From assembly GCA_913778495.1 (NCBI GenBank), contig CAJYVD010000013.1:62001-126000 (forward strand): 64,000 bases of DNA, written 5' to 3'. A program made the translations under genes and the position numbers. The DNA comes from an uncultured Pantoea sp. GTDB lineage: Bacteria > Pseudomonadota > Gammaproteobacteria > Enterobacterales > Enterobacteriaceae. Of the stretch, positions 22,498-58,972 are shown piece after piece. Under the pieces are notes generated by a model. The model searched no databases and was not told where the DNA came from. It saw only the letters and a list, made by a program, of their open reading frames with translations. Position 1 is the stretch's first letter. Each line of letters opens with the position of its first letter.

Positions 22498-23082
22498 TCA
22501 CGAATAGGTAAAGCCCGGCGCGTCCTTTTTGCTGCCCCAAAATATAGAGCGGTCGGCCATCTGTGCGACGTAACGGAAAATGCGATCGTCTGGCTGGGCG
22601 GCGCGGTGTGACTCATCGGTGTAGCGGTCAGGGAAAGGACGCTGCCAGTCGTCGAAAATATTGCTGACGGTGTACTGCAGTGCGTTTGTTTCCCCCGCGG
22701 TGGCGCCGGTACTGGAAACCTTACCCTGAAAAATCAGGTCAGCAACCTGCACTTTCCCGTTGTCGTCTATGGCAACCAGGAAGATTTCCGCCGCCCTGCC
22801 CACACACTTCTCATTCAGCGTCTTGGCAAACAGCGACATATCCAGTCCGGACAGCGTCATCTTTAGCTGTGTAGGGCTGGTCGTGTTGGTTTCGTTGACG
22901 TCATCGATTGAGCCCATACGGCCCATGCCGTAGTAGACAAAGCCGTCAATAACGATAGTTCCGGTGCCGGAGTGCACATAAGCGGTGCCTGACTCAAACT
23001 GGATGTTTGCAGCAACCACGACCGTCACCCGATCGCGAGACAGCCAGTCAACCATCGAGTCTGAAAAAGGTGAGTACATCAT
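22498..23082 (-). CDS. Minor tail protein (L-like position)
   Basis: 194 aa, beginning MMYSPFSDSMVDWLSRDRV. It has beta-rich composition and no signal peptide. It lies between the M-like and K-like genes of the tail-tip module and overlaps the upstream gene by one base, which points to a tip-complex component. Lambda gpL binds an iron-sulfur cluster, but the cysteines needed are not evident here. Confidence 0.7.
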   Translation of the reverse strand: MMYSPFSDSMVDWLSRDRVTVVVAANIQFESGTAYVHSGTGTIVIDGFVYYGMGRMGSIDDVNETNTTSPTQLKMTLSGLDMSLFAKTLNEKCVGRAAEIFLVAIDDNGKVQVADLIFQGKVSSTGATAGETNALQYTVSNIFDDWQRPFPDRYTDESHRAAQPDDRIFRYVAQMADRSIFWGSKKDAPGFTYS

Positions 23083-23675
23083 TAAAAGGCCTCCTCAAAC
23101 TCGATTGTGGTAGCGGAGACTAACCCCGGTGAGCGGCGTATCTCGCCCTGCGAGTTATCCTTCAGCTTGAAAATCCCCCACGGGTTTTGCACCTCAAGGG
23201 CGGCATTGGCAGGAGGAGACGACCGTAACATCGGGGCGAACTGAATGACTGCCGCGCCGGATGCGTTGCTCGTTACGTCTGCCGTCACTTTCTTTAGCTC
23301 TGAGTTAACGGTGAAGTAGTCCCCCGCGCGAAGAACCAGCGTGTTTGCTGCCCACCCCTTCGTGGAAAGGGCTACGCCGGTTTGCTCTGGATCCGTCACG
23401 ATGGGTGTGCCGGCAGGCGCCCTGCCCGCCCGGCCCCAGTCCCTGATTCTCACCCTGCCGTATTCACCATCAAGTGCGGCAATTACCGCCTCTATCTTTC
23501 TCGCCTGAGCCTCTTCCAGCACGGCATACTCAACGGTGCACTTCCAGCGAGATCCGGGGAAGCGAACCGTCTGTGATGCACCGTTAAAGGGAGAGCGGAA
23601 GGTTTTGGTGTTTGACTCAAGGTGCCAGCTGAGCGAGGAAGGATTGGGGCCTGGCCATTCCAGTACATCTGCCAT
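23082..23675 (-). CDS. Minor tail protein (M-like position)
   Basis: 197 aa, soluble, starting MADVLEWPGPNPSSLSWHLES. It lies directly after the tape measure gene, the position of lambda M, whose product connects the tape measure complex to the tip. Composition is beta-rich. No enzymatic motif was seen. Confidence 0.7.
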   Translation of the reverse strand: MADVLEWPGPNPSSLSWHLESNTKTFRSPFNGASQTVRFPGSRWKCTVEYAVLEEAQARKIEAVIAALDGEYGRVRIRDWGRAGRAPAGTPIVTDPEQTGVALSTKGWAANTLVLRAGDYFTVNSELKKVTADVTSNASGAAVIQFAPMLRSSPPANAALEVQNPWGIFKLKDNSQGEIRRSPGLVSATTIEFEEAF

Positions 23676-23689
23676 TTTTTACTCCTGTG

Positions 23690-26506
23690 TTATACACCCA
23701 GCAGGCGGCGCCCCTGCCCTCTGTTCTGGAAATCCTGCAGCATGTCCTGACGGGCCTGTTTAGCACCGTCATTAGCGCCTTTACGCGCTGCCTCCTCCAT
23801 AGCCCGCTGTAGCGCTGCGTCGCCATTACCACTTACCTGTATGGTCTGATTGATTATAACGTCACCTGACCTGACTGAGCCCGCCGGCTCCCCGCCAACC
23901 ATCCTGACGCCCAGTGAACCATCGGAAGAACGCGTTAGCGGCATAATGGCCTCTGGCCCGGCCTCCCCAAATACGCCTGCGCCCTTTGCAAAGGCGAAGA
24001 GCTGAGGTGAGTCATAAACTCCGTCGCTGTATGCACTCAGAGAGGGCGAATCGTACACTCCGCCTTTGGCGTTCATGTTAGGCGGCCGGTATGAAGGAAC
24101 AGCAAAGGACTGCCCTGCAGTCGATGCCGCTGCAGTCGTGCCTCCGAACAATCCGCCAAAGCTGCCAGATAAGCTGCTGCCAATTCCAATCAGTGACTGA
24201 CGGATAGCAATGCGGGCAATGTCAGAGAGTACCGAGTTGGCGAAGTCAGAGAATGATGCCTTGCCCGTGGTGGCGAACTTAACGAGCGCGTCTTCCATGT
24301 TGCCGAAAGCATTAGTGAATAGGCGTTCAGACATGGCAGAAACGTTCGCAGCGCTGTCACTGTACTCCTGCCATGCCCGTGAGGCTCCGGCAGTGAATGA
24401 GCCGCGCAGCTCGTTCATTCTGGCAATGTGGCTGTCGTAGTTACTGAGATCTGTTTGCAGCGCCTGCTGCTGGAGCTGAATTTCCTGGTCAATCTCTTCG
24501 CGCGCAATATCACTGGTAGCCTGCGCCCTGCTCTGGCGAAGCTGTGTGATTTTGTCGTTATAGGATTGCTCAAGTGACAAGCGCTGAGTGTACTGCTGCT
24601 GCTCGTATCGGCTCAGGCCGCCACCCGCAAAGAGTTCGTCAGTGGCATACTGGCTTTCCCGGTTAGCGATGGTTCGCATGATGTCCGCCCGCGCCTTATC
24701 CAGCGCCAGGAGCTTTTCACGGGTTTCAATCTGGCGTTCGAGTGCGGCGTTCTGCTGCAACTGAGAAGTGATGAGGTCAGCGCTGGTTAGTAGCGATTTC
24801 TGATCCGCCGTAAGCGTCTGCTTGCTCTTGATGTCTGCAAGCTGCTGCTCCCATTTGATCAGCGCCTGTTGTTGTGTGCCAATCTTGGCGCCTGTATCAG
24901 ACTGGCTCAACAGCACCTGCTGTTGCTGGCGTAGCTGATCAAGCAGTCGGGTTCCGGCATCCTCCGTGTATGCTTTCTCTCTTGGCTGCTTTGGATCCTT
25001 AAACATATCGTTAATGCGAGTAAGGTTGTTCGCATACTGTTCTTGAGTAATCGCACCGGCTTTTAGGAAATCATTCTGTTGCTGGATAGCTTTATTACGG
25101 CGCTGGGCGTTTGAAAGATACTGTTGGTTGACACGATCCGCTTCCTGCTGCGTTTTTATTGCTTTGTCCTGAGCTATCTGGCCTGACTTCACAGCACTAT
25201 TTAGGTCACCTTGAAGATCAATTACGCCCCGTAAAATGCTTGCCTCGCCAGCCGCGCCTGAACCTGATGAATTATTAACGCCGTAAGCATTCCACAGCCC
25301 GTTACTCAATCCATTAGCCTGCTGTTGAGCTGCTTTTTTGGCTGCATCAAGCCTTTCCTGAAGAGTCGTCTCACGCCCTACATTCAGCATTTGATCCCAT
25401 GCTGATTTAGCCGCTGAACCTAAAGAGTTCCAGGCGGTTTCGATGGAGCCCAGATTGTCGTGAATATCTTTAGCGCGGCGATTTATGGTTGCCGCATAAG
25501 TTTCTGTCGCAAGGCGAGCGGCTTCTTGCTGGTTACCTTCATCCTGAAGGGCTTTTATTTGGTTATAAACGGCCAGCGAGAGGAAATGGTATTGGTCGTT
25601 TAGCTTTGCCATGGAATCAAGCGGGCTGCCAGCTATTTTGTCAAAATCAGACACAAGCTGATCTACTGACTGCCCGGTGGCTTTACTCATATTTATGACG
25701 GCTGTAGAAACGACCTCCAGTGATTCTCCTGCGACTTTGCCGCTAGAAACAACCTGGTTTAACACTGAAGCAGCCATGCCACGAGTTGTTCCCGTGCTCC
25801 GAGCTATCTGATTGGCCATGTCCATCAGCTGGCCGGATGTTTTCCCTGCGGCATTACCTGTTAATACGAGTGTTTCATAGAATTTTTCCTGCTCTTCGCT
25901 TCCCTGATAATAAGCAAATGCCAGCGCCCCTGCTGCGGCTGCGGCAACCGTCAAGGGATTAACTAGACCTCCAACATAAGTGCCAACCGCCCTTGCTGCT
26001 GGCCCAATGCCGCCAAACATGTCCTTTAACTGCCCCCCTTGCTGTAGAAGGACCATGAAAGGACTTTGCCCGCCCGCTAAACTGACGGCAATATCTGTCA
26101 TTTGGGCCGGAATCATGCGCATTTGATAAGCGGCCTGTTTGGCAGATATTCCGGCCTTACCTGCACTGTCCGCAAACCGCGTCAGATTTCCTCGCGCATC
26201 TTCAATTTTTTTGGAGTAATCAGAGAACGTATCTGAGTCTATGAAACCCTTAGCTTGAAACTTAGCCAATTGTCGCTGCTGGTCGTCCAAACGATTCAGC
26301 GCGGCGTTAACCGGGTCAATCCGGTCTAGCAGGTCTGAGAGAGATTTCGCTTCTTGTTCAGTAGCCTTCGCTGTCTTGCCAGCACTATCTGCAGCTCTTT
26401 GCCCGGCCTGAGTCATCTTTGCCAGCGCGCCTGCCAGACCTTCTGCATTACGTTGCGCTCCAGTACTGTCGATGACTATCGCAAGTCGTGATTGTTGTTC
26501 AGCCAT
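23690..26506 (-). CDS. Tape measure protein
   Basis: 938 aa from MAEQQSRLAIVID, chosen because GGAG lies at good distance; an upstream Met five codons earlier is less likely. The long helical N-terminal coil contains AYQMRMIPAQMTDIAVSLAGGQSPFMVLLQQGGQL, typical of lambda-group tape measure proteins. Hydrophobic stretches occur around residues 175-205 and a low-complexity Gly/Ala-rich part near 800. It sets tail length and is ejected into the host envelope. A terminator sits just upstream. Confidence 0.92.
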   Translation of the reverse strand: MAEQQSRLAIVIDSTGAQRNAEGLAGALAKMTQAGQRAADSAGKTAKATEQEAKSLSDLLDRIDPVNAALNRLDDQQRQLAKFQAKGFIDSDTFSDYSKKIEDARGNLTRFADSAGKAGISAKQAAYQMRMIPAQMTDIAVSLAGGQSPFMVLLQQGGQLKDMFGGIGPAARAVGTYVGGLVNPLTVAAAAAGALAFAYYQGSEEQEKFYETLVLTGNAAGKTSGQLMDMANQIARSTGTTRGMAASVLNQVVSSGKVAGESLEVVSTAVINMSKATGQSVDQLVSDFDKIAGSPLDSMAKLNDQYHFLSLAVYNQIKALQDEGNQQEAARLATETYAATINRRAKDIHDNLGSIETAWNSLGSAAKSAWDQMLNVGRETTLQERLDAAKKAAQQQANGLSNGLWNAYGVNNSSGSGAAGEASILRGVIDLQGDLNSAVKSGQIAQDKAIKTQQEADRVNQQYLSNAQRRNKAIQQQNDFLKAGAITQEQYANNLTRINDMFKDPKQPREKAYTEDAGTRLLDQLRQQQQVLLSQSDTGAKIGTQQQALIKWEQQLADIKSKQTLTADQKSLLTSADLITSQLQQNAALERQIETREKLLALDKARADIMRTIANRESQYATDELFAGGGLSRYEQQQYTQRLSLEQSYNDKITQLRQSRAQATSDIAREEIDQEIQLQQQALQTDLSNYDSHIARMNELRGSFTAGASRAWQEYSDSAANVSAMSERLFTNAFGNMEDALVKFATTGKASFSDFANSVLSDIARIAIRQSLIGIGSSLSGSFGGLFGGTTAAASTAGQSFAVPSYRPPNMNAKGGVYDSPSLSAYSDGVYDSPQLFAFAKGAGVFGEAGPEAIMPLTRSSDGSLGVRMVGGEPAGSVRSGDVIINQTIQVSGNGDAALQRAMEEAARKGANDGAKQARQDMLQDFQNRGQGRRLLGV

Positions 26507-26521
26507 GTTTTCTCCGGGCAT

Positions 26522-26544
26522 AAAAAAACCCCGCCGAAGCGAGG
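26522..26544 (-). terminator. Terminator of the lipoprotein moron
   Basis: Minus-strand CCTCGC-TTCG-GCGGGG with a UUCG tetraloop and seven U, 20 bp after the lipoprotein gene and directly before the tape measure start. Confidence 0.85.
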
Positions 26545-26563
26545 TTGCGTATGTTGCTTTATG

Positions 26564-26995
26564 TTATCGGCTAGAAATGAGCATTAGCTTGCCAGCTGAA
26601 TTCCAAGCCCTCACCCTTAGCGAGGTTGAGGAGTTTGAGCTTTCAAGATCTACCTCAGCTCTGCTTTTTTTTGCACTCATCAATTCGAAAGTGACGACGC
26701 GGCTGCCATCGATGAATGCGCTACTAACATCTGTTTTAACAAATAGCTCACCATCAATGTTTAGTGAGGCGTCGCTGCCTGAAATGTTGAGCTTTGCATG
26801 TCGCCACTTTCCACTTCCTAGCTGATCGCCTGCCTGAATTTCACATTCAATTGATACATTTCCATTAATACAGTTAAATTTTGCAGATTCTTGCTTAGGC
26901 TTAGCTTCATCAATCTTTTCCACTTGCGACGTTGATGAATTATCACAACCAGACAGAATAAGTGCGACAGCCGCTAGAATAATTGCCTTTTTCAA
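26564..26995 (-). CDS. Moron-encoded lipoprotein, TTG start
   Basis: 143 aa if started at TTG 26995, where a lipoprotein signal begins: MKKAIILAAVALILSGC, lipobox LSGC. Asp follows the lipidated Cys, the classical inner-membrane retention signal. The frame is open 66 codons further upstream, but that part crosses a terminator and is rejected. The mature part is polar and beta-rich (SLNIDGELFVKTDV), without a recognised domain. The leader shares a 13-bp identical sequence with two other exported-protein genes of this prophage. It has its own terminator. Confidence 0.8.
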   Translation of the reverse strand: MKKAIILAAVALILSGCDNSSTSQVEKIDEAKPKQESAKFNCINGNVSIECEIQAGDQLGSGKWRHAKLNISGSDASLNIDGELFVKTDVSSAFIDGSRVVTFELMSAKKSRAEVDLESSNSSTSLRVRAWNSAGKLMLISSR

Positions 26996-26996
26996 A

Positions 26997-27009
26997 TCCC
27001 TATCCCCAT
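26997..27009 (-). promoter_or_regulatory. Shared 13-bp leader element, copy 1
   Basis: ATGGGGATAGGGA on the minus strand, one base before the TTG start at 26995. It contains the presumed Shine-Dalgarno GGGGA. Upstream CTTTAGGATTTAT is also shared with copy 3 (51181-51193). Confidence 0.85.
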
Positions 27010-27057
27010 GAGGTTTTATGGGATAAATCCTAAAGCCTATCTTATGCAATGGGAAGC

Positions 27058-27079
27058 AAAAAACCCGCCGAAGCGGGTT
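27058..27079 (-). terminator. Terminator of the secreted-protein moron
   Basis: Minus-strand AACCCGC-TTCG-GCGGGTT with UUCG loop and U-tract. The stop codon of the gene lies at the base of the stem. Confidence 0.85.
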
Positions 27080-27425
27080 AAGAGTTCTTGCGCGATTCTG
27101 TGATAAAGCTGACGATCTGTGAGGACAAACTCTCGCGAACTTTAGAGGTTGTCTGGTCCCTAATTTTTGAAATAGCTTCTTGTTGTTGTGCACTTAAACC
27201 AGACCATTGCGCTTTATCAGGGCCAATAGAGTCATGGTACTCAGAAAGCTCAGCGCTACATTTGTCAAAAGCTTCATCAGAAATGGTGCCAGCTGATTTC
27301 GTGGTTTTGATTTGGCTGTCAGCATATTGTGTCACGCAGTCGCTTAGGTTTTTTGCAGCACTTTCCGTATCAGCATGTGCCACGCAGCACACCAGCAATC
27401 CCATCACAGCTAAAGCTAATTTCAT
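27078..27425 (-). CDS. Moron-encoded secreted protein
   Basis: 115 aa from ATG 27425: a Sec signal peptide (MKLALAVMGLLVCCVAHA, cleavage expected after AHA), then a mature helical domain of about 97 residues with two cysteines (about 29 and 56). Function is not recognised. The upstream 13 codons of the open frame are rejected because the start at 27425 has the shared 13-bp leader one base before it. It has its own terminator, the hallmark of a moron expressed from the prophage. Confidence 0.8.
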   Translation of the reverse strand: MKLALAVMGLLVCCVAHADTESAAKNLSDCVTQYADSQIKTTKSAGTISDEAFDKCSAELSEYHDSIGPDKAQWSGLSAQQQEAISKIRDQTTSKVRESLSSQIVSFITESRKNS

Positions 27426-27426
27426 G

Positions 27427-27439
27427 TCCCTATCCCCAT
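27427..27439 (-). promoter_or_regulatory. Shared 13-bp leader element, copy 2
   Basis: ATGGGGATAGGGA on the minus strand, one base before the ATG at 27425, identical to copies at 26997-27009 and 51181-51193. TACGAT about 25 bp upstream is a possible -10. Confidence 0.85.
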
Positions 27440-27497
27440 AAATACAGTAGGCAAATCGTAGCATGGAGTGAGTGCAAGATGGTGCAAAGGTAAGTGT

Positions 27498-27785
27498 TCA
27501 AAATGTCAGAAATTTTCTGATTGATAGGTACCAATCATTGATAGTTGGGTTCAACTGCATAATCCAGAAGCCAAGAGCTATCATCGCCAAACCCGCGCAA
27601 GTGTGAAGCAGCATGTATAGCCAGTACACCTCGCACCTGTCACTTCTGTGCACGTATTCTCGCCGGGATGTACCTTTGAATCGTAATGTGTAGACGCCTC
27701 GACGCAGAAAGAATACGGCTTCAGTGAGAGTAATTATGCCGCAGGCAAAAATGATAATGACAAGTATCCAGTCTTTAACGTCCAT
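27498..27785 (-). CDS. Small membrane protein (moron)
   Basis: 95 aa from ATG 27785 (CAGG ribosome site 8-11 bp upstream; a longer frame to 27848 is less likely). Two transmembrane helices (about residues 5-27 and 55-78) flank a basic loop with RRGVYTLRFKGTSRREYV. No family was recognised. It is the outermost of the minus-strand accessory genes and diverges from rexA, with about 215 bp between the starts. Confidence 0.6.
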   Translation of the reverse strand: MDVKDWILVIIIFACGIITLTEAVFFLRRGVYTLRFKGTSRREYVHRSDRCEVYWLYMLLHTCAGLAMIALGFWIMQLNPTINDWYLSIRKFLTF

Positions 27786-28001
27786 AATTATACCTGCAGG
27801 TCTGGTTTGCCGAGATTTTACGCCAATTGTATGCAAAACCATAAGCACTGATCATCTATCAGGATGGGCGAGGAAGCAAAGCCAGGTTAGGATGATTCCT
27901 AGAACGCTTGGTCATTATACGCTTCATCACCTCATCCTATGCCATTCAAACCACACGCATCATGGCAGGGATCGACCACAACGCTAATTTATGGATTCAC
28001 A

Positions 28002-28847
28002 ATGAAATTAAGCTTCAACGCTATTTACGCACTTGATAAAAAATCTGGGGAAAAGGCCCCCTTAGACTTCTTACGGCTTTTATCTGAGCAGGTCATAGAT
28101 GCAAATAATCATTCTCAACAGATAGAGGACTATTACGTTTTCGCTCACCATATTTCAGGTGATTCTTTTCTCATTACAAAAACTTTCGACTCAGATCTAG
28201 TAAAAAGGATTAATCGTAAAACATTTTCAGTAGATGAGATTAGAAGCTCTCTAAGTTCAGATGAATCGCTCGGTTTTCCTTCATTCCTTTACATCAGCGG
28301 AAACGTTATTGGATTCGCAAGGACACTTTATGGACCAACCATCAGAGAGCTAACAGCATACATAAACGCACGCTGCAAAATCCCAGATGGCCATAAGCTA
28401 TCTATTGAACCACTTATGCGTGACATCACAAAGGATGATGCGATGAACATGCAGTTTATCGGCAGAACCACCATCAGAGTCGAATCAGCTTCGAAGTTTC
28501 TTGGCCCTCTGCTTCGAACACTTGGAGCTCAATCGATTGACGAAGAACTCCTTGAAGGTATAGAAATCACTATCAAACCTAAACGTATGCGCAACATAAA
28601 GGGGTTTGCTAAGGAAATCATTGATAACATTGACGAACAATATGAAAGCATTTTGCTCAAAGGTAAGGAGCAAGCTGCCGATTTGTTAACGGAGTTTTAC
28701 TTGTCTGACAAAGGGCAGATAAGCACCAATCTTTATCGTTCCACTAACGAAGATTTAGCGTTAGAAATGGCAACTTGTTACATCAGAATGAAGCCGGTTA
28801 TTGTAGAATGTTTTACAAACATGTTCGGAGACGAATTATCAATCTAA
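28002..28847 (+). CDS. rexA: RexA-like superinfection exclusion protein
   Basis: 281 aa (lambda RexA 279 aa). The start at 28002 aligns with lambda RexA; the longer frame from 27939 is rejected. Similarity is strong throughout, with shared blocks DDESLGFPSFL, GFARTLYGPT, IEPLMRDITKDD and FIGRTTIRVES. In lambda, RexA is the cytoplasmic DNA-binding sensor that triggers the RexB channel on phage attack. Here the gene is not near cI but in the tail region, antisense to the late operon, so it needs its own promoter; none was firmly identified in the 215 bp upstream. Confidence 0.94.
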   Translation: MKLSFNAIYALDKKSGEKAPLDFLRLLSEQVIDANNHSQQIEDYYVFAHHISGDSFLITKTFDSDLVKRINRKTFSVDEIRSSLSSDESLGFPSFLYISGNVIGFARTLYGPTIRELTAYINARCKIPDGHKLSIEPLMRDITKDDAMNMQFIGRTTIRVESASKFLGPLLRTLGAQSIDEELLEGIEITIKPKRMRNIKGFAKEIIDNIDEQYESILLKGKEQAADLLTEFYLSDKGQISTNLYRSTNEDLALEMATCYIRMKPVIVECFTNMFGDELSI

Positions 28848-28869
28848 ACGCTTAAGGAGAGGGGCTAGA

Positions 28870-29307
28870 GTGCGCATAAAAATCACCCCTGCGATCATAC
28901 TTTTTACAATACCTTACGCGTTTGTAGTAGCTGCTTACTACATCGTTCGACGGCTTGCAGAAGGTGTGTCCTTTTCTGAGCACAGAGACGCCTTAGGGGC
29001 AGCTATGGCATCGTACTCAGGTACGACTATAGCCATACTCATAGCTGCTCTAACTTTTATGATGGGGCTTGGCGGACGCAATATGTACAAGCTGAAAGCA
29101 TATGGTTATATGTCTTCTATTGTAATTTTGTACGCGTTGACATTTGTTGAGCTTGGTATTGTTTTCTTCGTTGGCATTTTCTTGATGGCCACAAGTAAAA
29201 CTCCTATCCCGATGCTACCTAGTATCTGCATTGGCATGTCTGCGGCTTCTCTGGTGCACATTAGCTTGCTTTTGGTACAAATATTCAATTTTTCAAAGGC
29301 TAGGTAA
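28870..29307 (+). CDS. rexB: RexB-like membrane ion channel of the exclusion system
   Basis: 145 aa (lambda RexB 144 aa), GTG start after AAGGAGAGGGG, 22 bp downstream of rexA. It has four transmembrane helices. Blocks shared with lambda RexB include GVSFSEHRDALGA, SSYAGT-like SYSGTTIAILIAALTF and YALTFVELG. In lambda RexB forms the depolarising channel and also stabilises some addiction antitoxins. The 3' end overlaps the convergent 51-aa tail gene by 8 bp. Confidence 0.94.
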   Translation: MRIKITPAIILFTIPYAFVVAAYYIVRRLAEGVSFSEHRDALGAAMASYSGTTIAILIAALTFMMGLGGRNMYKLKAYGYMSSIVILYALTFVELGIVFFVGIFLMATSKTPIPMLPSICIGMSAASLVHISLLLVQIFNFSKAR

Positions 29308-29455
29308 CTTCGAACTGCGGGGGGTTAATTCCTCTTATCGCTAGTTTCTTGGCCTTCCGAGCCAGAAAATCTTCAGCCACAGCATCATACTCTTCTCTAG
29401 TAAATCCCTTCTGCTCGGGAAATCTCGCTGTCAGCAACATCTGAAGCTCAGTCAT
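29300..29455 (-). CDS. 51-aa protein after the tail chaperone gene
   Basis: 51 aa: MTELQMLLTARFPEQKGF then a basic helix RKAKKLAIRGI. Its ATG is 2 bp after the G-T stop, showing tight coupling to the tail chaperone gene. Position between chaperone and tape measure suggests a tail-assembly role, inferred from place only. Its end overlaps the convergent rexB stop, so rexAB was inserted exactly at the end of this gene. Confidence 0.7.
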   Translation of the reverse strand: MTELQMLLTARFPEQKGFTREEYDAVAEDFLARKAKKLAIRGINPPQFEVT

Positions 29456-29457
29456 CG

Positions 29458-30215
29458 TCAGCTTTTCTGCTTCTTATCCCACTCCGCCCGGTCGGCATCG
29501 TCCAGAGCAAAGATCGCTGCCTCAAACTCATCGCGATCAATCTGCAGCGGTTTGCAGGCAAGATAGGCATTGATATCTTCCAGACTGATTGGCAGCGGCG
29601 TAGCAGCCATGCCAGCGTATCGTCTGCTTCTGGTAATGACTGCATAAGCGGCCAGAATCTCACTGCATACCCCGTCCGTTTCAGGCTCAGGGATAGGTGG
29701 TAGCTTTAAACGCTCTCGCTTCCAGCGGTTCTTTTCTCCCTGCTCTCCGCCGAACTCCCTGAGCCAGCTTTGGCATTCGAGGACTTTCCCACGGTTTCCC
29801 TGGTCTGCGCCTCTTTCCCGTCAGCGATATCTGATGCCGTGCTTAGCACAGCCCAGTACAGCTCTGGATGCTGAAGCATCAGCGCTTTGCCTTTCTCCGC
29901 AGAATATTCGATGGCAGTCTCTTTCCCTGCTTCGTCAGCCACGCCAACCCCCTCCCAGTTCAGCAGCAGATGCTTTGCCACTGAGTCAATGAGCAGGTCG
30001 TCAGAAATATCGCTTACGTCGATATCCGCTGGGTTGAACTCCGATGTGCCGACCTTAAAGCGATCATCAAGCTTGCTGATGTGCCGGCGCACCATTGCGT
30101 TATGTGAACGGAAGGCCGGATTGCTGATAGAGCCAACTTTCAGCCTCAGCCCGTCCATAGGCTCAATCCAGCGCTCGGCATTGGCATCGAATTTAGGTGT
30201 TTTCAGAATGAGCAT
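29458..30215 (-). CDS. Tail assembly chaperone G-T fusion (-1 frameshift product)
   Basis: Ribosomes slipping -1 at GGGAAAG (29784-29790) leave the G frame and read 108 further codons to a TGA at 29460-29458, giving about 252 aa. The extension contains PPIPEPETDGV and TPLPISLEDINAYLA, and ends EWDKKQKS. In lambda the G and G-T products chaperone the tape measure during tail assembly in a fixed ratio. The extension frame has no convincing ribosome site of its own, supporting frameshifting. Confidence 0.85.
29706..30215 (-). CDS. Tail assembly chaperone, G-like short form
   Basis: 169 aa, zero-frame product. It starts MLILKTPKFDANAERWIEPMDG and has an acidic helical middle and a low-complexity Ser/Ala/Lys tail (SSNAKAGSGSSAES) after the slippery site. 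It lies between the major tail protein and the tape measure, as lambda G. About 97% of ribosomes use this frame in lambda; the ratio here is unknown. Confidence 0.85.
   Translation of the reverse strand: MLILKTPKFDANAERWIEPMDGLRLKVGSISNPAFRSHNAMVRRHISKLDDRFKVGTSEFNPADIDVSDISDDLLIDSVAKHLLLNWEGVGVADEAGKETAIEYSAEKGKALMLQHPELYWAVLSTASDIADGKEAQTRETVGKSSNAKAGSGSSAESREKRTAGSESV
29784..29790 (-). promoter_or_regulatory. Programmed -1 frameshift site GGGAAAG
   Basis: On the minus strand the heptamer is in phase (G GGA AAG) within the G frame and is the same slippery sequence used in lambda G/G-T. A second GGGAAAG nearby at 29813-29819 is out of phase. Confidence 0.85.
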
Positions 30216-30259
30216 GTTCTTCTCTGTAAGCAGCCCGCCGCTATGGACGGGCGATTAGA

Positions 30260-31432
30260 TTAAGACGCAGTGACGGTGATCGCAGTGGTGGCCTTGTACG
30301 AGCGAGCCTTGGCAGTGATGGTTGCCGAACCTTCTTTCACTCGCGTGACCTGCGCTGTTTTCTGGCCGGTGGATGCGACGGTGGCTACTGAAGGGTCTGA
30401 AGACTCCCACACAACAGTGTCCGTTGAACCAGCTGGTGTCAGCGTTGCCGTCAGGGTGACGTTAGATCCGACAGCGCCGGTAGACGTCGCCGGCGCGACA
30501 CTCAGCGCTGTTGCAGCAACTACCGCAGAGCGGGTAATCGTCGGCGGCGTGTCGGCTGCAGTGATGTTGAGCTGAACCTGCACAATGTCAGTGTTGCCAC
30601 CATCCGGCCAGTCGCCGTCAACCTGCACAGCTGGGAAGTTGAAGTCGTATTTGCCTTCGTCGTTCTCCAGCGTGAAACCGAACTGCATGGTTTCGCCAGA
30701 CAGCGTTTTCTTCCAGGCGTTGTAGGCGTCTTTCGACCACGACAGCGTGATGCTGCCAGACGGGGTAAACGTTGTCGGGATATTGGCCCCGGCGAACGGG
30801 TTGCCACTGCCGATACAGCGCTGCGTCTGCAGATTGTTGTCGAACTGGATGTTGAAGGTATCGACACAGAACCCATCGCCACCCGCAACGCCGTTGAGCG
30901 AAATTGCTGTAACCTGCTTGAAGGTGTAGCGAAGGTCACCAGCTCCATCAACGGGGCTGGAGAAGTAACTGGTATCGTCGGCTTTGGTATCGAATCCAAG
31001 TCCCGCAAAGGTCACGGTCGCTGTGATATCGCCGTCATTAGGGATCGACAGCTGGAATGTGCCTACCTGACAGCCGCGGGCAATCGACGCTACGCCAATA
31101 TCCTCTGCATAAGAGGCGACAGAGAACGCGATACGGTCGTTGCCCATTGTCAGCACATTGTTAACCCAATCCGTGCCAAAGCACGAAGCAAGGAAGTCAT
31201 CGTGCTGTCCCCAGCGGAACTTGGCGCCGACATCGCCGCCCACATCTACCGTGCCGGTAGAGCGCCCCTGGGCCATACGAGAGCCGCCGATTTCATCGTT
31301 GTCGATCATGTTCTGCGACGGACCCACACCGAAGCTGCTGCGCTTCAGCAGATTCCATGTGCCGGTCGCGGGAGTGGTGCCGGGCGTGGTTTCGCGGATG
31401 TACGCGGTAACGACCTTAGCGCCTGAGCTCAT
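30260..31432 (-). CDS. Major tail tube protein with C-terminal Ig-like domain
   Basis: 390 aa. The N-terminal tube domain (about 1-290) starts SSGAKVVTAYIRETTPGTTPATGTWN-like. The C-terminal 85 residues form a bacterial Ig-like domain of Big_2 type (SDTVVWESSDPSVATVAS; GSATITAKA), displayed on the tail surface as in lambda gpV. It lies between tail terminator and chaperone genes. Confidence 0.88.
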   Translation of the reverse strand: MSSGAKVVTAYIRETTPGTTPATGTWNLLKRSSFGVGPSQNMIDNDEIGGSRMAQGRSTGTVDVGGDVGAKFRWGQHDDFLASCFGTDWVNNVLTMGNDRIAFSVASYAEDIGVASIARGCQVGTFQLSIPNDGDITATVTFAGLGFDTKADDTSYFSSPVDGAGDLRYTFKQVTAISLNGVAGGDGFCVDTFNIQFDNNLQTQRCIGSGNPFAGANIPTTFTPSGSITLSWSKDAYNAWKKTLSGETMQFGFTLENDEGKYDFNFPAVQVDGDWPDGGNTDIVQVQLNITAADTPPTITRSAVVAATALSVAPATSTGAVGSNVTLTATLTPAGSTDTVVWESSDPSVATVASTGQKTAQVTRVKEGSATITAKARSYKATTAITVTAS

Positions 31433-31457
31433 AATAATTTCTCCGGGGTTATGCGCC

Positions 31458-31850
31458 TCATACGGCGCGATAAGGTATTTGAATGTTCATCTGCGCCCAG
31501 CCATCCGTTTCACCGGCATCGATCGCTGAGACCGCAAAGTAGTCCAGTCTGCCGTCCGTCTCGAACTCGAACAGCTCGCGCAGCTTGTCGGCCGTCTGCG
31601 TGATGAGCAGTGAACCAGAACCGGCTGGCACAAAAATTTGAATGATGGCGATACCTGTGCGCTGCACAACGGGGCCAGCACCGATTTCGTTTGCCGCTGC
31701 CATGCCGGGGATATTGGTCAGCCTCGCCCAAATGGATTTACCTGACGGGTCGTAAGTCGGCCCGTTCGGGTAGCTAACATCCTCTGAAGCAATAGCGGTC
31801 TGCGCCGTCATCCGGGAGATGATGGCGTTCCTGATTTCAGTGAGCGTCAT
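31458..31850 (-). CDS. Tail terminator protein (DUF4128-like)
   Basis: 130 aa, starting MTLTEIRNAIISRMTAQT. The position between the HK97 gp10-like gene and the tail tube gene, together with size, fit a tail terminator (lambda U position), which caps the tail tube and joins it to the head. It overlaps the upstream gene by 4 bp. The DUF4128 assignment is from memory. Confidence 0.7.
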   Translation of the reverse strand: MTLTEIRNAIISRMTAQTAIASEDVSYPNGPTYDPSGKSIWARLTNIPGMAAANEIGAGPVVQRTGIAIIQIFVPAGSGSLLITQTADKLRELFEFETDGRLDYFAVSAIDAGETDGWAQMNIQIPYRAV

Positions 31851-32269
31851 TTGTAGGCCTGAGTTACACCGTGGAATGCGTTAGCGTAAACACCCGTGGG
31901 TGCCTGTTTAGAGTGCCCATTTTCCAGCCTTTCGCTGTAAGGGAGGTTCGACTGGATATAAATCACTGAGTAAGGCTTGCCCTGGGCAATTACAGCTGAG
32001 CCCTGCTGAATGGTCTTCGTGCCAACTTTGTCCGGCGCGGCCGGTTCAGAGTAGTCCGGTGAACCAATGCTGACGATGTGAGAGGCTCGAAATGAGCCGC
32101 CTGTATACCCTTTGGGTGCTGGGCTCATCCAGAGGTCGGGGTTACCTACTGGAGAGCGCTGGACAATCTCCGTAAGCAGCGCCATTGAGATGATGCGAAG
32201 CTTCTTTCCCACCTCTTCCTCAATCAGACCAGCAAAAATTGTCGGGTCGTTATCCCACCCCTTAGCCAT
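31847..32269 (-). CDS. HK97 gp10-like head-tail connector/tail completion protein
   Basis: 140 aa, beginning MAKGWDNDPTIFAGLIEEEVGK. It has the charged helical start and the later SLPY-like region LPYSERLENGHSKQAPTGVY that is characteristic of the gp10 family. It completes the head-tail interface. It overlaps the next gene by 4 bp and the preceding one by 1 bp. Confidence 0.75.
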   Translation of the reverse strand: MAKGWDNDPTIFAGLIEEEVGKKLRIISMALLTEIVQRSPVGNPDLWMSPAPKGYTGGSFRASHIVSIGSPDYSEPAAPDKVGTKTIQQGSAVIAQGKPYSVIYIQSNLPYSERLENGHSKQAPTGVYANAFHGVTQAYK

Positions 32270-32652
32270 TACTTTCTCCTTAACTGGATGCGGTAGGTTG
32301 CAACAGCCGGATCGGGCGATAGCGTCACGATGCGGTAGATTTGAGGTAAGCCTGTCGCGAGGTCAGGCGCAGTGATGGTGTGACTCTGACTGGGGATATC
32401 CGTTACTTCGTTAGCAAGCGCAGTAAGGCGAAGGTCTCCGTGCAGGATGTTCACGCCATCGATGCGGCTCAGCTCATAACGTGACAGCACACCTCGCCCG
32501 GAATAGCTCCGAGTTGTCTCGCCACCTGTCTCCGTTACCGGATCCCACCCTGCCTGCACCGTATAGCTGCCTGTGAAGTCATGCACCGCATCAGCAAGGT
32601 CAGTATCGAATGCCTCAGCAATCTCAGCCTGTAGCTCGTCACGAATGCCCAT
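32269..32652 (-). CDS. Head-tail joining protein
   Basis: 127 aa from MGIRDELQAEIAEAFDTDLADAV; the open frame extends 13 codons into the upstream gene, but the Met at 32652 overlaps the upstream stop in the usual way. Similar phage proteins are often mislabelled glutamate 5-kinase; no kinase motif is present. A head-tail joining role is inferred from gene order. Confidence 0.7.
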   Translation of the reverse strand: MGIRDELQAEIAEAFDTDLADAVHDFTGSYTVQAGWDPVTETGGETTRSYSGRGVLSRYELSRIDGVNILHGDLRLTALANEVTDIPSQSHTITAPDLATGLPQIYRIVTLSPDPAVATYRIQLRRK

Positions 32653-33047
32653 TATCGATACACCCTGAAAGCGAGAGGATTGCTGCGCCACGGCTTGAGC
32701 AGCGCGAGAGCTAACTGAACATCCTCCGGCAGCGATGAGCTGCTAACAGACTGCGATGATGCATAGCTCTTCGTCACCCTCACCCCGTCCGCATCGACCG
32801 TTTTACTGGTCAGCGCGCCTGATTCAACCTGCTGCTTGTACAGCACGCCAGCGGCAGCTGCTGAGGCGAGAAACGCCCCTGCCTGTTTCACATCATCAGG
32901 AGTGACATCAGGGAGGCCCTGCAGGTTAAGAGCGGTCAGGTAGGCGTTAGCCTGCAACACTGCTCTAGCCTTCTTCTCTGGCGCCGTCCAGTCAGTACCC
33001 AGCAACTCATCCACGTCAGCGACGGTCATGTACGTTGTCATGTTCAC
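32652..33047 (-). CDS. Head-tail connector protein (gp6-like position)
   Basis: 131 aa, starting MNMTTYMTVADVDELLGTDW. It is a helical protein with TVADVDELLG and a central Ala-rich helix (AGAFLASAAAAGVLY). The N-terminal style resembles the DnaT-like/connector group often found here. Its stop overlaps the next gene start. It should form part of the ring that joins portal and tail. Confidence 0.65.
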   Translation of the reverse strand: MNMTTYMTVADVDELLGTDWTAPEKKARAVLQANAYLTALNLQGLPDVTPDDVKQAGAFLASAAAAGVLYKQQVESGALTSKTVDADGVRVTKSYASSQSVSSSSLPEDVQLALALLKPWRSNPLAFRVYR

Positions 33048-33078
33048 TCCGTGCTAAATGGGGCCGAAGCCCCAAGGA

Positions 33079-33492
33079 TTACTGTTGTGGTTGCTGAGCG
33101 GCTTTGAGCTGCTCAAGCAGGGCGTCACGCGATGCATTGCCTTTGTACTCAACGCCAAGCTCATCAAGCTTTGTCTTGATGTCAGTGGCGCTGAGGCTGT
33201 CGAGCGGATCAGAGCTGTTGCCGCCACCCTCAGCAAGCTTTGCGTTGGCCGCGTCCAGTTGCTGCTGTAGATCGTCATTGCGCGCCTGAAGTGCAGCCAT
33301 GTCGGCAGCAGTGGGCTGGACACCAGACCCATTTCCGTGAGCGCCTTCGTCATCAACGGGCGCGCGGGCATGATCAACACCACCTGTTTCACCCACGGTC
33401 TGCGGACCAACAGTGATTTGTCCGTCTTTCTCAGCAAAACCCCAACGAGCCTTCTGCTCCGGGTCAATTACATTGTCTTTTACGATCGTCAT
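33079..33492 (-). CDS. Phage protein with C-terminal HeH/LEM-like domain
   Basis: 137 aa. Residues 1-55 are acidic and Gly-rich, a short coiled coil lies around 60-85 (AALQARNDDLQQQLDAANAKL), and the last 40 residues (SATDIKTKLDELGVEYKGNASRDALLEQLK) form a HeH/LEM-type helix-extended-loop-helix. Such proteins often follow the capsid gene; the exact role (head decoration or DNA contact) is not known. Confidence 0.65.
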   Translation of the reverse strand: MTIVKDNVIDPEQKARWGFAEKDGQITVGPQTVGETGGVDHARAPVDDEGAHGNGSGVQPTAADMAALQARNDDLQQQLDAANAKLAEGGGNSSDPLDSLSATDIKTKLDELGVEYKGNASRDALLEQLKAAQQPQQ

Positions 33493-33531
33493 CAGGAACT
33501 CCTGTAAAGCCCCGAGTTGGGGCTTATTTGA

Positions 33532-34563
33532 TTAAGCTGAAACTTTAGAGGTCACAAACGCCAGTGGGATTTGCTTACGGCTAAACTTGCGATCCCAGTT
33601 GGTCGCCAAGGCCAGGTCAGCCCAGTTAGCAGAGATTGGACGAGAAGTGCCTGGCGTGCCGGTGATGGTAGTGCTGTTGAAGGAGTAGCCCAGCGGATGA
33701 ATCACGAAGTTACGACGCGTCCAAAGTGTTTCTGCGCCACCACCGTTACCTCGGGCCGGTTCACGATCGTATTCCATATCGTCTTCATCCTGCTCTTCGG
33801 CATAACCAAGAGCGCCCGGACCAAAGATGATAGAGAGATACTTCGCATCGGCACCAGTTCCAACAACCGGCAGACCATCGTCCAGCACAACGACCATGTT
33901 CTGGTAGCGACCGAACTCTGGCACCTGATCCGCAATTGGGGTGAAATCAATCTGGTTAAGGATTGACAGTTCGGTGTACACGGCAGAATGCATCGCGATG
34001 ACGCTCAGCGCCGTGGTACCGGATGGCGTGATGATTTGCGGGCTGTAGTCGCCCATCGTCGCGCGTGCGCGGATGATTGCAGCGGCAGTAATAGGGCCGC
34101 CAGCGTCAACAACCATGTCACCGCTGCTGCCTGCAACGTTGTCGTTATAAACACCTACGACAGTGGCAATAGCCCGGCGCTGAGCAACTCGCTGCCAGTA
34201 GCTGGTCAGACGGCTTGCCACGAACTCCAGCGGATCCTGATTGGTGATATTTTTCACCAGGCTCATCGCGTTCCAGCCTTCGTTCAGGTATGCCGCGCGC
34301 GCCTGCATGCTTGCAGAAGTTACGGACAACGGAACCGCGATGTCGGTGTAAACGTCATTCGAGTAGTTGGACTCAACAGACGCATCCAGATCAACCCACC
34401 ACGGAATGGTGAAGGTGTTTGATGGCGACGCCAGCAGCGTGCTCATGTCGCGGTTGTTTGTCAGGATACCTGACTGGAAAAACGCGGTTTTCTCAGCAGT
34501 GTTTACCTGCATGTAGTCGCGCAGCTCGTCGCGGAACACTACATCAGAAAGAATGGTTGGCAT
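33532..34563 (-). CDS. Major capsid protein
   Basis: 343 aa, beginning MPTILSDVVFRDELRDYMQVNT. Gene order (portal, minor head, scaffold, capsid) and the IIFGPGALGYAEEQDEDDMEYDREPARG-containing region near the C-terminus fit HK97-fold capsid proteins of this terminase/portal group. It forms the icosahedral shell. A hairpin (GCCCC/GGGGC) lies between this gene and the next. Confidence 0.85.
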   Translation of the reverse strand: MPTILSDVVFRDELRDYMQVNTAEKTAFFQSGILTNNRDMSTLLASPSNTFTIPWWVDLDASVESNYSNDVYTDIAVPLSVTSASMQARAAYLNEGWNAMSLVKNITNQDPLEFVASRLTSYWQRVAQRRAIATVVGVYNDNVAGSSGDMVVDAGGPITAAAIIRARATMGDYSPQIITPSGTTALSVIAMHSAVYTELSILNQIDFTPIADQVPEFGRYQNMVVVLDDGLPVVGTGADAKYLSIIFGPGALGYAEEQDEDDMEYDREPARGNGGGAETLWTRRNFVIHPLGYSFNSTTITGTPGTSRPISANWADLALATNWDRKFSRKQIPLAFVTSKVSA

Positions 34564-34574
34564 TGCTTAAATCC

Positions 34575-35273
34575 TTATTTGGATGCCTCATGCACTGCTT
34601 TAAGTCGCGCATGTTCGGCGGGGTTAGTTCGGCGAAGCTCAACGCGCTCCATGCCGGATAATTGCTCCCATGTTTTGGTAACCCGGTCACCACTCTTAGG
34701 CGCGGCCCCGCCGCCACCTGCCTGACTGCCGCGTACGAGGGATGCGTAACGCGGAGAGGTTTCGAACTCTTTCTGCAGATCAGCGAGAGTGCTGACCGTG
34801 AGATTGCCTGACTCGTCAGTAATGCGTACCTGCCCTTCTGCCACCTTAAGGCGACGGGCGATGAACTCAGTGAGGATTTCGGCATTAGAGCCGTCTGCAA
34901 TCGCCGTGGCGACGCGAGTAGCTGCGAGGTTGATGTCGCGCTGCTCAATGGAGCGGCGAAGCTCTACGAGGCTGCTACGCTCGCGTTCAAGCTCTGCCTG
35001 AGAGCTTTGGAACAGCTGCTGATAGTTACCTTCTGCGGCGAGGCGCTCCTGCTCTTTGCGCTGAATTTCTTCTTCTGCCTGTCGGCGGCGCTCCTGCTCG
35101 GCTTTCTTCTCTGCCAGAAGCTCGTCACGTTGGCGCTTTAAGCCGCTTACGTCTTCCTGCGGGATGCCATCAACCTGCAGCAGATAGATCTCACCCTGCT
35201 GCACATACAGCGCCTGTTTGGCTTCTTCAAGCTGAGCGAATTCCTCAGCGGTAAGCTGATACTTCAGAGTCAT
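34575..35273 (-). CDS. Head scaffolding protein
   Basis: 232 aa. A highly charged coiled coil runs over about residues 45-125 (DELLAEKKAEQERRRQAEE), followed by an acidic-basic C-terminus. Composition and the position directly upstream of the capsid gene are typical of scaffolds, which guide capsid assembly and leave the mature head. Confidence 0.8.
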   Translation of the reverse strand: MTLKYQLTAEEFAQLEEAKQALYVQQGEIYLLQVDGIPQEDVSGLKRQRDELLAEKKAEQERRRQAEEEIQRKEQERLAAEGNYQQLFQSSQAELERERSSLVELRRSIEQRDINLAATRVATAIADGSNAEILTEFIARRLKVAEGQVRITDESGNLTVSTLADLQKEFETSPRYASLVRGSQAGGGGAAPKSGDRVTKTWEQLSGMERVELRRTNPAEHARLKAVHEASK

Positions 35274-35322
35274 ACATTCTCCTGAATGGATGTGTGCTGG
35301 CCCTGCCAGCGTTCAGATGTGA

Positions 35323-36369
35323 TTAATCAAGGCCTGCAAGCTCGAAGGCGTGCGGCTCTAAATCTTTGAGTTGGTCGAGGGTGTACTCTTTGCCGTTGTC
35401 ATCGACGAAGCGGTCGAGAGTGATCTCGCCTTTGCTGAACAGCTTGTAACGCGCCGGTCCCAGCACCTCTTTCTGGAATGCGGCAGGCTGTCTTGCCAGC
35501 CATTCACCGTAACTGGTGTTGCTGCTGACCTGCTCAACGCCATCTGGCCCTTTCGATGGTCGCGTGCTGCCGGGAATCTCTCGCTGATACTCAGGCTTGA
35601 GCACCGGCACTATTGACGACCGACACCCCCAGTGCGCGGGAGGCTTTGGCCCATCCAGCGGATAAACCTTTCTGTCACGCGCCCGACATACTGGCGTTGT
35701 TCTGCTGTCGAGCGTTGCTATCCAGCGATGACCTTGCAGGATGTCGTCGTTCTGCTTCAGCGTTTCTGCCCGGGCTGATGAGGCGACATGATTAGTCATC
35801 GTCCTGACCAGCGAGCCAACCTGCTCCTCATGCGACACACCCAGCGAGGTAAGGCGCCGGATGATTTGCTTCTGCGTCTCACCGAGAGATGAACCGATAG
35901 CGATTTCGCTGAGGATGTCCGCTGTCTTCTTGCTGCCGAACTGTGCCAGTGCGCCTGTGATGTCGATAACCTGCCTGCCACGCCCTACAGCAAGCTCTAA
36001 CGGGTCAGCCAGTACAGCTGCGGCTATCACTTCTGCCGATGGCTCAGCGAGGCGCACAGAAGCTTTAACGATTTGGCCGAGCAGCTTGCTGTTGAAGGTG
36101 AATTCGTATTGCGCGAACTCACCCAGGTCAAGCTTCTGCTGCTGTGACAGCTCGCCGTAGATGGCATTCAGGTCGCTCCTGAGCGTTTCCATCTGCCGGT
36201 TATAGCGAGCAGTGGCGTACTGGCTCAGCCCTTCGTTAACCGCCTCTTTAGCGCGCCTGATAGCCTTGCGGACAAACTTAGCCGCCTTACCAGCAAGACC
36301 CGAACCGAATCGCTGTACGTAAACCTGATGGCGCGTGGCGGCGTCTGTCGTGTAACCGTCTGCGCTCAT
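35323..36369 (-). CDS. Minor head protein, Mu F/SPP1 gp7 family
   Basis: 348 aa. Residues about 195-250 carry the family signature: RWIATLDSRTTPVCRARD then PPAHWGCRSSI. These proteins bind the portal inside the head and aid DNA packaging or ejection. It is encoded 2 bp after the portal gene. Confidence 0.87.
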   Translation of the reverse strand: MSADGYTTDAATRHQVYVQRFGSGLAGKAAKFVRKAIRRAKEAVNEGLSQYATARYNRQMETLRSDLNAIYGELSQQQKLDLGEFAQYEFTFNSKLLGQIVKASVRLAEPSAEVIAAAVLADPLELAVGRGRQVIDITGALAQFGSKKTADILSEIAIGSSLGETQKQIIRRLTSLGVSHEEQVGSLVRTMTNHVASSARAETLKQNDDILQGHRWIATLDSRTTPVCRARDRKVYPLDGPKPPAHWGCRSSIVPVLKPEYQREIPGSTRPSKGPDGVEQVSSNTSYGEWLARQPAAFQKEVLGPARYKLFSKGEITLDRFVDDNGKEYTLDQLKDLEPHAFELAGLD

Positions 36370-36371
36370 GG

Positions 36372-37832
36372 TTACTCCTCAGTGACTGGTTCAGTGGCAT
36401 CAGTAACAGTATCGCCATCAACAGGCGGCTCCTCGGCACGCTCAGCATCAATATCATCGTCGTTACGATCAGCCTCAAGCCAGCCGGTCTGCCTGAACTT
36501 GGTGCGAACGTCGCTCTTGGCGATGATGCCCTGCTGCCAACTCTGAATAAGCGCCAGAACGTCCTGCGATGTGAGCGATGCGTCGAAGAATTCCTGATTT
36601 AGCCAGAACACGGTGTTAGTCATGTCGGCTTTGCCACTCATGTAGAGCTGCGCATCCAGAATGGCGCGCTTAAGTGCCTCGCTGACATTACCGGCAATCG
36701 TACCCAGCACACTGTTATCGCTGCTGTAACGAATACGGGCTGCTTCTGCTGTCTCGTTCTGCCCTGACTGCTGCACAATGCGCGCACCAATCATCAGCAT
36801 CTGGTTCTCTTTTTCCTGCATCAGCTTGAGCGCGAGCTGGCTTTCACTGGCCTGCAGCATGATTGCATTGCCATCAGAGCCAAGGGAATAACCCCTTGTT
36901 GAACCAATCTGGATTCCGCCAGGGTTCCAGGCCTCGAAAGATTGCTGGTCGATATTGGTCGTGAAGAACAGCGTTGGCTGGCTGCTGATGAAGCCTGATT
37001 CCTCAACCGTAGCGCTGTTGCCGTAGTGAAGTACGTTCACTTCTGCGAGGTCTTCGAGGGGAGCCTTATCAATGCGAGCATCGTTGCTCTCAGCACCGAA
37101 GAAGTAGAACGGGATGTGATCGAACCGGTTGCCATTGAAGTCTGTCGGATACACGTCTAGCTGCGGCGTTTCGTAGGGGTCGCCCTCATGCCACATGCGG
37201 TGACGGTACGCGCCGTCTTCCAGTGTCAGTGCGCGGAACTGCTTTTTGACGTCAAAGGTGAATTCATCGTTTTCAGCCTTGTTGTAACACTCAGCGAAAA
37301 CAACCAGTGTCAGCTTGCGCACGCCATCAATTACGTCTTCGCGCCAGTTGATGATGCTCAGCGCTTCATAGAGGTGAATGTGAGCAAAGCGCCCTGCTGT
37401 CTGCGCCTTTGTCGGGCGCGTGCCTTCTGGTGAGTCACTTGTCGGATAGTCCACGAAGAAACCACCGCGACCGGTATCAAGGTCTTCACCTACAGCCTCT
37501 TTGGACAGCTGTTCAAGGCTGGTGCCGTCACCGCTGGCGTTTTCGATGAGGTATTTCACCGAATCCGGCAAATCAACCTCAGCAGTTTTACGGAACACTG
37601 CGCCAACCAGTCCCTGTCGCGTTCGACCAGTAATGTTGAGGAACATGGCGCGCTTAAGCAGTGCTTCGTAGCGTGCATTATTCTCGTCGCTGTTATTAGT
37701 TGGATCAGGCATAGGAAGGTAAATAATGCCCTTATCCTTCACAGCCCTGCTTCCGGCCACACAGTCTTTGACAAGCTGCCATGACTTTGCGGCATCGCTG
37801 TACTCTGCTCTTGCGTGTGAAAAGTTAGCCAT
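36372..37832 (-). CDS. Portal protein (DUF4055 family)
   Basis: 486 aa, beginning MANFSHARAEYSDAAKSWQL. The family pattern includes LKRAMFLNITGRTRQGLVGAVFRK and an acidic C-terminal tail. It forms the dodecameric channel for DNA entry and exit. It lies between the large terminase and the minor head gene, the expected position. Confidence 0.87.
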   Translation of the reverse strand: MANFSHARAEYSDAAKSWQLVKDCVAGSRAVKDKGIIYLPMPDPTNNSDENNARYEALLKRAMFLNITGRTRQGLVGAVFRKTAEVDLPDSVKYLIENASGDGTSLEQLSKEAVGEDLDTGRGGFFVDYPTSDSPEGTRPTKAQTAGRFAHIHLYEALSIINWREDVIDGVRKLTLVVFAECYNKAENDEFTFDVKKQFRALTLEDGAYRHRMWHEGDPYETPQLDVYPTDFNGNRFDHIPFYFFGAESNDARIDKAPLEDLAEVNVLHYGNSATVEESGFISSQPTLFFTTNIDQQSFEAWNPGGIQIGSTRGYSLGSDGNAIMLQASESQLALKLMQEKENQMLMIGARIVQQSGQNETAEAARIRYSSDNSVLGTIAGNVSEALKRAILDAQLYMSGKADMTNTVFWLNQEFFDASLTSQDVLALIQSWQQGIIAKSDVRTKFRQTGWLEADRNDDDIDAERAEEPPVDGDTVTDATEPVTEE

Positions 37833-58777: not shown

Positions 58778-58972
58778 ATGGAATCCCCATACATGACATT
58801 TGAGGAAACGGCCGCTTTCTTCCGCCGTTCAGTTAAAACCATCCGTAACTGGAACAGCCGCGACAGGCGCACTGGTGAAAAGCGCATGTGCGGATTTCCT
58901 GACCCGGCTCATCACGGCCTGTTCTTGAAAAGCGATATCGAGAAGTTTGGTAAGTTACATTGTCACGATTGA
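58778..58972 (+). CDS. xis: Excisionase (Xis-like)
   Basis: 64 aa, AAGGAG upstream. A MerR/AlpA-like helix-turn-helix is visible (MTFEETAAFFRRSVKTIRNWNSRD) followed by a wing-like basic part. Location next to, and convergent with, the integrase supports an excisionase that turns the recombination toward excision. It overlaps int by 18 bp. Confidence 0.82.
   Translation: MESPYMTFEETAAFFRRSVKTIRNWNSRDRRTGEKRMCGFPDPAHHGLFLKSDIEKFGKLHCHD

Follow-up and report, generated by a model that had tools for sequence, protein, structure and literature searches.

A lambda-type rexAB pair in the tail gene block of a Pantoea prophage: a probable moron cassette with a candidate promoter head

The phage exclusion genes rexA and rexB are found, in the prophage described here, within the tail gene block and away from the repressor. 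The most probable reading (roughly 0.78) is that this lambda-type RexAB exclusion pair is a moron cassette that occupies an exchangeable slot, carries a promoter head of its own and works by the mechanism of its family. Few phage exclusion systems have been known for longer than RexAB, which in the accounts consulted is placed beside the repressor. The system itself is known; its placement and control are new. A literature search, with subscription papers mostly outside its scope, returned no recognised description of a rexAB pair in a tail block or of the element found upstream of it. The DNA analysed is a stretch of 64,000 nucleotides from an uncultured Pantoea sp., referred to here as the window.

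The RexA and RexB homologues

The rexA homologue (28002-28847, plus strand, ATG start) encodes a putative DNA-binding sensor of 281 aa. Directly downstream, after a gap of 22 bp, the rexB homologue (28870-29307, plus strand, GTG start behind AAGGAGAGG) encodes a putative membrane effector of 145 aa. RexA is matched by Pfam RexA (E 2.7e-57, 1-233 of 235), by PADLOC RexA (8.5e-108) and by the PHROG family ‘RexA-like exclusion protein’ (1.3e-117), and RexB by Pfam RexB (1.6e-39) and PADLOC (1.6e-52); an NCBIfam search gave no match for either protein. Identity to the lambda proteins is 46.6% for RexA, with 98% of the query covered, and 47.6% for RexB, with 100% covered. Both proteins can be aligned end to end with those of lambda, Hafnia yong1, Klebsiella phi6.1 and Salmonella MS2 LVA, and the RexB of the window has four hydrophobic segments, like lambda RexB. 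When the RexA family profile was compared with the PDB, the sole match was the lambda RexA structure 8TWQ. The dN/dS of the window against two related loci, L024 and L026, is 0.037 and 0.043 for rexA and 0.054 and 0.085 for rexB, which indicates that both genes are under purifying selection. The initial annotation had called the two proteins clear full-length homologues and had proposed a similarity search against lambda RexA and RexB; the significant profile matches and full-length alignments bear it out. On these comparisons both proteins are confirmed as full-length, constrained RexA and RexB homologues, and the pair as lambda-type RexAB.

A longer open reading frame for RexA, starting at 27939, was ruled out because in an alignment the extra codons contain a stop in L024. 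No strong ribosome-binding site is seen ahead of rexA. The rexB start codon at 28870, GTG in the window, is ATG at the same place in L024-L026. Lambda has a promoter inside rexA, and a promoter-like site before rexB (28812-28839) was considered as a parallel; it was rejected since its hexamers are not conserved in L024-L026.

Position of the pair within the prophage

The window holds a prophage with an integrase (58955-60196), a cI-type repressor, O/P-like replication genes, Q, holin and lysin, and with structural genes for TerL, portal, head, tail tube, chaperone, tape measure, J and fibre. The genes from TerL through the tape measure in this series lie on the minus strand and rexAB lies on the plus strand, so that late transcription would run against rexAB. 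The repressor gene, with an S24 peptidase domain recognised by Pfam (49627-50259, plus strand), starts 20,320 bases past the end of rexB. The pair is bracketed by the gene for the tape measure protein, which forms the left flank of the slot (23690-26521, minus strand), and that for the tail assembly chaperone of PHROG 313 (29706-30215, minus strand). The initial annotation had described rexAB as more than 20 kb from cI, between the chaperone and tape measure genes and against the late strand, and both the distance and the strands agree with that description.

To the right, rexB is adjoined by a 51-aa open reading frame (29300-29455, minus strand) that represents the 3' end of a tail gene (DUF6246/PHROG 791) and matches the DUF6246 family at its C-terminal end only. 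It is followed by a PHROG 1189-like tail open reading frame (29458-29610, minus strand), which is homologous to L123, G039 and G025 from 29467. No plus-strand terminator-like site is reported just past rexB, the nearest one on that strand being at 29716. To the left, rexA is not directly beside the tape measure gene, as three small minus-strand open reading frames intervene: a small lipoprotein-like frame with a TTG start within the slot (about 26564-26995), an exported-type frame of 128 aa with homologues in L024, L025, L050 and other slot-bearing contigs (27078-27464), and the gene for a DUF2542 protein (27498-27848). Two stretches, 26987-27033 and 27421-27488, are repeated heads of small minus-strand lipoprotein-like genes and are conserved even where the phages compared differ in cargo; just ahead of the first is a stem resembling a terminator, AACCCGCTTCGGCGGGTT in minus-strand reading.

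A shared cassette in an exchangeable slot

Four IMG/VR loci (L024-L027) share with the window a cassette at 27836-29475 (plus strand), comprising a 166-bp head, rexA, rexB and the 3' end of the DUF6246 tail gene, at ~87% DNA identity. Its left edge is sharp, 166 bp upstream of rexA, and its right end falls inside the 3' end of the DUF6246 gene. Just beyond these limits the identity is not continued in one block; L024 and L025 additionally match the neighbouring small minus-strand gene at 80-85%. The genus genomes G039 and G025 have chaperone and tube genes 81-84% identical to those of the window as far as 29467 and no match past it. In eight other genus genomes the match in this region is confined to the 3' end of DUF6246, with a second short tube-region match in G041. 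Since the flanking matches split at 29467, the tail block of the window is a mosaic, and these matches suggest that rexAB brought along the final 150 bp of a tail gene that belonged to a different tail type.

L123 is closely related to the window in its tail genes (tube 96% and chaperone 91% identical), and its slot contains three other plus-strand open reading frames. The two share 23000-26550 and 29467-37831 at 71-84%, as does G039. Within the slot they share two islets alone, one of 47 bp at the head of a minus-strand small gene (26987-27033, 94% to L123) and one on the plus strand in which 36 of 36 bases are identical (27831-27866). As a phage of the same tail type has other genes there, the slot can be considered exchangeable cargo space. 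The rexAB genes are extra genes between conserved phage genes and are absent from the relatives L123 and G039, as is characteristic of morons. The suggestion that the pair forms a self-contained moron is therefore sustained, by the block common to four contigs and by L123, which has the flanks without the cargo. The same slot holds Arc-like and antirepressor genes in the isolated Erwinia phage Midgardsormr38 (L007).

Locations of rexAB in other genomes

Annotated rexA comes after cI in lambda, yong1 and phi6.1. Across a survey of 33 loci, a repressor lies directly upstream of rexA in 25 (22 called by tblastn, and L030, L033 and L045 by reading of the open reading frame). The eight without one are L021, L022 and its duplicate L046, L024-L027, and L032, for which just 407 bp upstream are available. 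The L022 match covers RexA 68-271 only, and L147 and L148 were not placed. Eleven genome_contigs loci that resemble lambda DNA (L009-L019) were left out of the survey and of the tree; in each of them cI is just upstream of rexA. They come from unrelated assemblies (Shewanella, Streptomyces, Bradyrhizobium and others), have the same scores as lambda and in several cases measure ~48.5 kb, so they are probably lambda DNA left in the assemblies. A near relative of the immunity region of the window, L044 (IMG/VR 3300031419_000362), has cII 98% and cI 69% identical and keeps rexA at home, with a different rexA (43%) directly after cI. RexA is rare: among the genus genomes 1 of 61 has it, and among those of the order 3 of 394.

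A survey of related prophages for rexAB at this place, as proposed at the outset, found it in the slot of the window in four of the 24 rexA-bearing IMG/VR loci (L024-L027), beside a DUF6246 tail gene and with rexA 93-94% identical. In L021 (Cedecea) the pair is beside a serine recombinase at the end of a tail-gene prophage, near the host gene folD, and in L032 it is past tail fibre genes at the contig end. On a RexA tree of 20 chosen rows with an arbitrary root, the five tail-slot proteins, of which those of L026 and L027 are identical, form a single clade with support 100/100, and the immunity-located L028 is its next relative (68% RexA identity); RexA of L021 and L032 falls elsewhere. At least three placement changes are required on this arbitrarily rooted tree, which implies that rexAB relocated more than once. 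That rexAB travels independently of the immunity region, as had been claimed, is thus seen in the L024-L027 block and in L021 and L032, both outside that region.

The upstream element

The head of the cassette contains a core, CTGATCATCTATCAGG (27848-27863, plus strand), with the inverted repeat CTGAT-N5-ATCAG at 27848-27862. The sequence TAGGAT (27888-27893, plus strand), 24 nt past the core, is a candidate -10 hexamer, in which case 27894-28001 (plus strand) would be the leader of the rexAB transcript. The core precedes unrelated plus-strand genes in many prophages. A 26-base version of the element occurs in 8 IMG/VR stretches, some of them without rexAB, and the 17-base core occurs in 55 stretches, some of which are likely chance matches. 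The 16-base core is present in 9 of 61 genus genomes and a reversed control pattern in 0. A search of 50,697 isolated-phage records for the element yielded nothing more than scattered partial hits, and the 1500 bp before rexA of L028 contain no copy. The inverted repeat was also sought in the window's own cI region, but the window has no second exact copy of it; one-mismatch matches at 12682 and 57599 are roughly at chance level. To our knowledge, no known transcription factor fits CTGAT-N5-ATCAG well.

Collapsing copies >85% identical reduced 57 distinct copies to 37 representatives, 26 of which have GCA upstream of the core. Most of the 11 without GCA are probably chance matches, but L112 has both slot flanks and L097 has one. 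Both slot flanks accompany 13 of the 26 GCA copies and one flank accompanies 8, giving at least one flank in 21; of the five flankless copies, L077 and L094 are near Q and lysis genes. In 19 of 26 GCA copies (22 of 37 representatives) the pattern TANNNT follows the core at a distance of exactly 24 nt. At other offsets between 10 and 44 it is found in at most 7 copies, the next best offset among the GCA copies having 6, and in 2000 shuffles of the flanks its maximum was 5 at any offset. Where the hexamer lies at 23-25, a plus-strand open reading frame (at least 60 aa, start within 350 bp) follows in 19 of 20 copies, and without a hexamer in 1 of 5 (Fisher p 0.0019; L082 was too short to judge), counts that are not independent trials as the 26 copies share ancestry. 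The association is weaker for a hexamer at exactly 24 (17/18 vs 3/7, p 0.012). L058 has a gene without a hexamer and L127 a hexamer without a gene, whereas the other four of the five hexamer-less copies (L080, L083, L098 and L115) have a minus-strand gene in place. We infer from this pattern that the element may be a shared moron promoter, in which a bound factor would replace the -35 hexamer. A scan with the sigma-70 consensus found no promoter before rexA, and the number of sites was no higher than in shuffles. On the upstream-facing (minus) side, ANNNTA occurs at 37-39 nt in 14 of 26 copies (6, 5, 3), a weaker pattern than on the plus side. In L109 a minus-strand head directly adjoins the plus-strand head; in the window the DUF2542 gene stands between the plus-strand head and a remnant of the minus-strand head, and the upstream-facing side of the element is broken by it.

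Other cargo behind the element

A variant of the element with 79% identity occurs in 42 of 5426 E. coli genomes. In the two that were inspected it precedes a second two-gene pair (318 + 145 aa), next to which phage injection genes lie on the opposite strand; this arrangement is seen in L134 and L135. The layout of this pair has the shape of RexAB, a soluble protein followed by a 145-aa membrane protein with four or three segments. Neither Pfam nor PADLOC gave a Rex match for it, and its alignments to the Rex profiles fall in matching places, weakly (hhalign probability 23% for the membrane protein and 8% for its soluble partner). An AlphaFold model of a second-pair protein, built from four near-identical sequences, has a mean pLDDT of 39, and comparison with PDB sequences gave a single chance-level match (E 1.1). 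The second pair is Rex-like in shape and perhaps has a remote kinship with RexAB.

IMG/VR loci with the second pair bear on a different view of the conserved block, in which it is a recombination anchor for the swapping of cargo rather than a promoter and rexAB is transcribed by some other route. Homology does start sharply at the block between unrelated cargoes, and a second islet of like kind is present at 26987-27033. An anchor leaves unexplained, however, the TANNNT fixed at 24 nt in 19 of 26 copies and the loss of the hexamer beside minus-strand slot genes. In addition, 11 of 11 second-pair loci have the element with TAGGAT at 24 nt, the core varying yet the spacing and TAGGAT being kept. 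An anchor in place of a promoter is therefore unlikely; anchor and promoter roles could also be combined in one block, and a promoter role is retained in what follows.

PADLOC was also applied to 20 further cargo proteins, of which three gave strong matches and the others none that was convincing. The three are a HipA-like kinase (L084), a Ser/Thr kinase of PD-T4-6 type (L094) and PDC-S42 (L128), the last sitting after an element copy without the GCA flank. These defence matches, 3 of 20, weigh against the idea that rexAB serves chiefly the phage's own lysis-lysogeny switch and that exclusion is a by-product. Lambda RexA binds DNA and biases toward lytic growth without RexB (PMC11077077), which would suit such a role; the pair of the window, though, is distant from the repressor and in a slot of varied cargo, and a switch function as its main purpose appears quite improbable. 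Exclusion as the function of a moron cassette remains the preferred reading.

Comparison with known systems

The pair resembles lambda rexA-rexB in gene order, in the full length of both proteins and in the identities given above. It differs in that lambda has rexAB directly after cI, whereas the pair of the window lies in the tail block, 20.3 kb away from cI and behind a different upstream element. The lambda arrangement, beside the repressor and co-transcribed with it, is not found in the window, and the family models do not require it. Outside the tail-slot group, L028 and its near twin L029 are the most closely related to the window, but they are immunity-located, with the repressor directly upstream. 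The title of Cumby et al. 2012 reportedly calls HK97 gp15 a superinfection exclusion protein. Like the pair described here, gp15 is a moron, lying in the gap that separates the tape measure gene from that for the tail chaperone (record NC_002167), a placement that identifies this gap as a place for morons; it differs in being one gene, on the late-gene strand, for an unrelated protein.

RexABpp of Pseudomonas putida prophage 1 likewise combines a sensor with a membrane effector, and its defence activity has been shown, but it is far more diverged (it was found by HHpred) and lies downstream of a CI-like repressor with two genes between (PMC12894663). Defence genes against the late strand that are expressed from the prophage are known in phi80 Tai and JBD26 Tab; these are in other slots, encode other proteins and target tail assembly (PMC11364771, PMC10884400). 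RexAB as recognised by DefenseFinder is mostly on prophages (PMC9090908).

Proposed mechanism

The conserved head at 27831-27893 would act as a promoter read from the prophage, with some factor binding CTGAT-N5-ATCAG in place of a -35 hexamer and TAGGAT serving as the -10. With such a promoter, the lysogen would produce RexAB without relying on the repressor operon. When certain phages infect, RexA would, by analogy with its family, detect a phage replication or recombination intermediate or a phage protein and activate RexB, the channel of which would collapse the membrane potential so that the infection is aborted. This scheme, in which RexA senses and RexB opens, has been put forward for lambda, and for P. 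putida part of it has been demonstrated (PMC12894663). Regarding late transcription across the pair, the level of phi80 tai, an anti-late defence gene, was unchanged after mitomycin induction and fell only under Q overexpression (PMC11364771). Because this precedent is mixed, antisense silencing is possible and should not be assumed. The notion that rexAB is a silent passenger retained by hitch-hiking fits the failure of the consensus scan to yield a promoter but is very improbable, as both dN/dS values are far under 1, the frames are intact and the head is conserved in five loci.

Beyond the moron cassette itself, a more general reading stands at about even odds: that one portable element, ATAAGCA-CTGATCATCTRTCAGG-N24-TANNNT, recognised by a host factor, drives any anti-late tail-slot cargo in enterobacterial prophages. 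Its cargo would comprise lambda-type RexAB, the second, probably Rex-like pair, HipA-like and Ser/Thr kinases, and many unknown genes. With a TANNNT-like hexamer also facing the opposite way in roughly half of the copies, the element would on this reading be a hub working in both directions.

Implications

Carriage of rexAB as cargo with a head of its own allows its role in defence to be tested separately from the switch. Should the element prove to be a promoter, looking downstream of its copies would offer a way to locate prophage defence genes, and the factor that binds it, if identified, would tell when prophages switch on such cargo. If the portable element is real, RexAB would be one cartridge of a general, repressor-free prophage defence socket.
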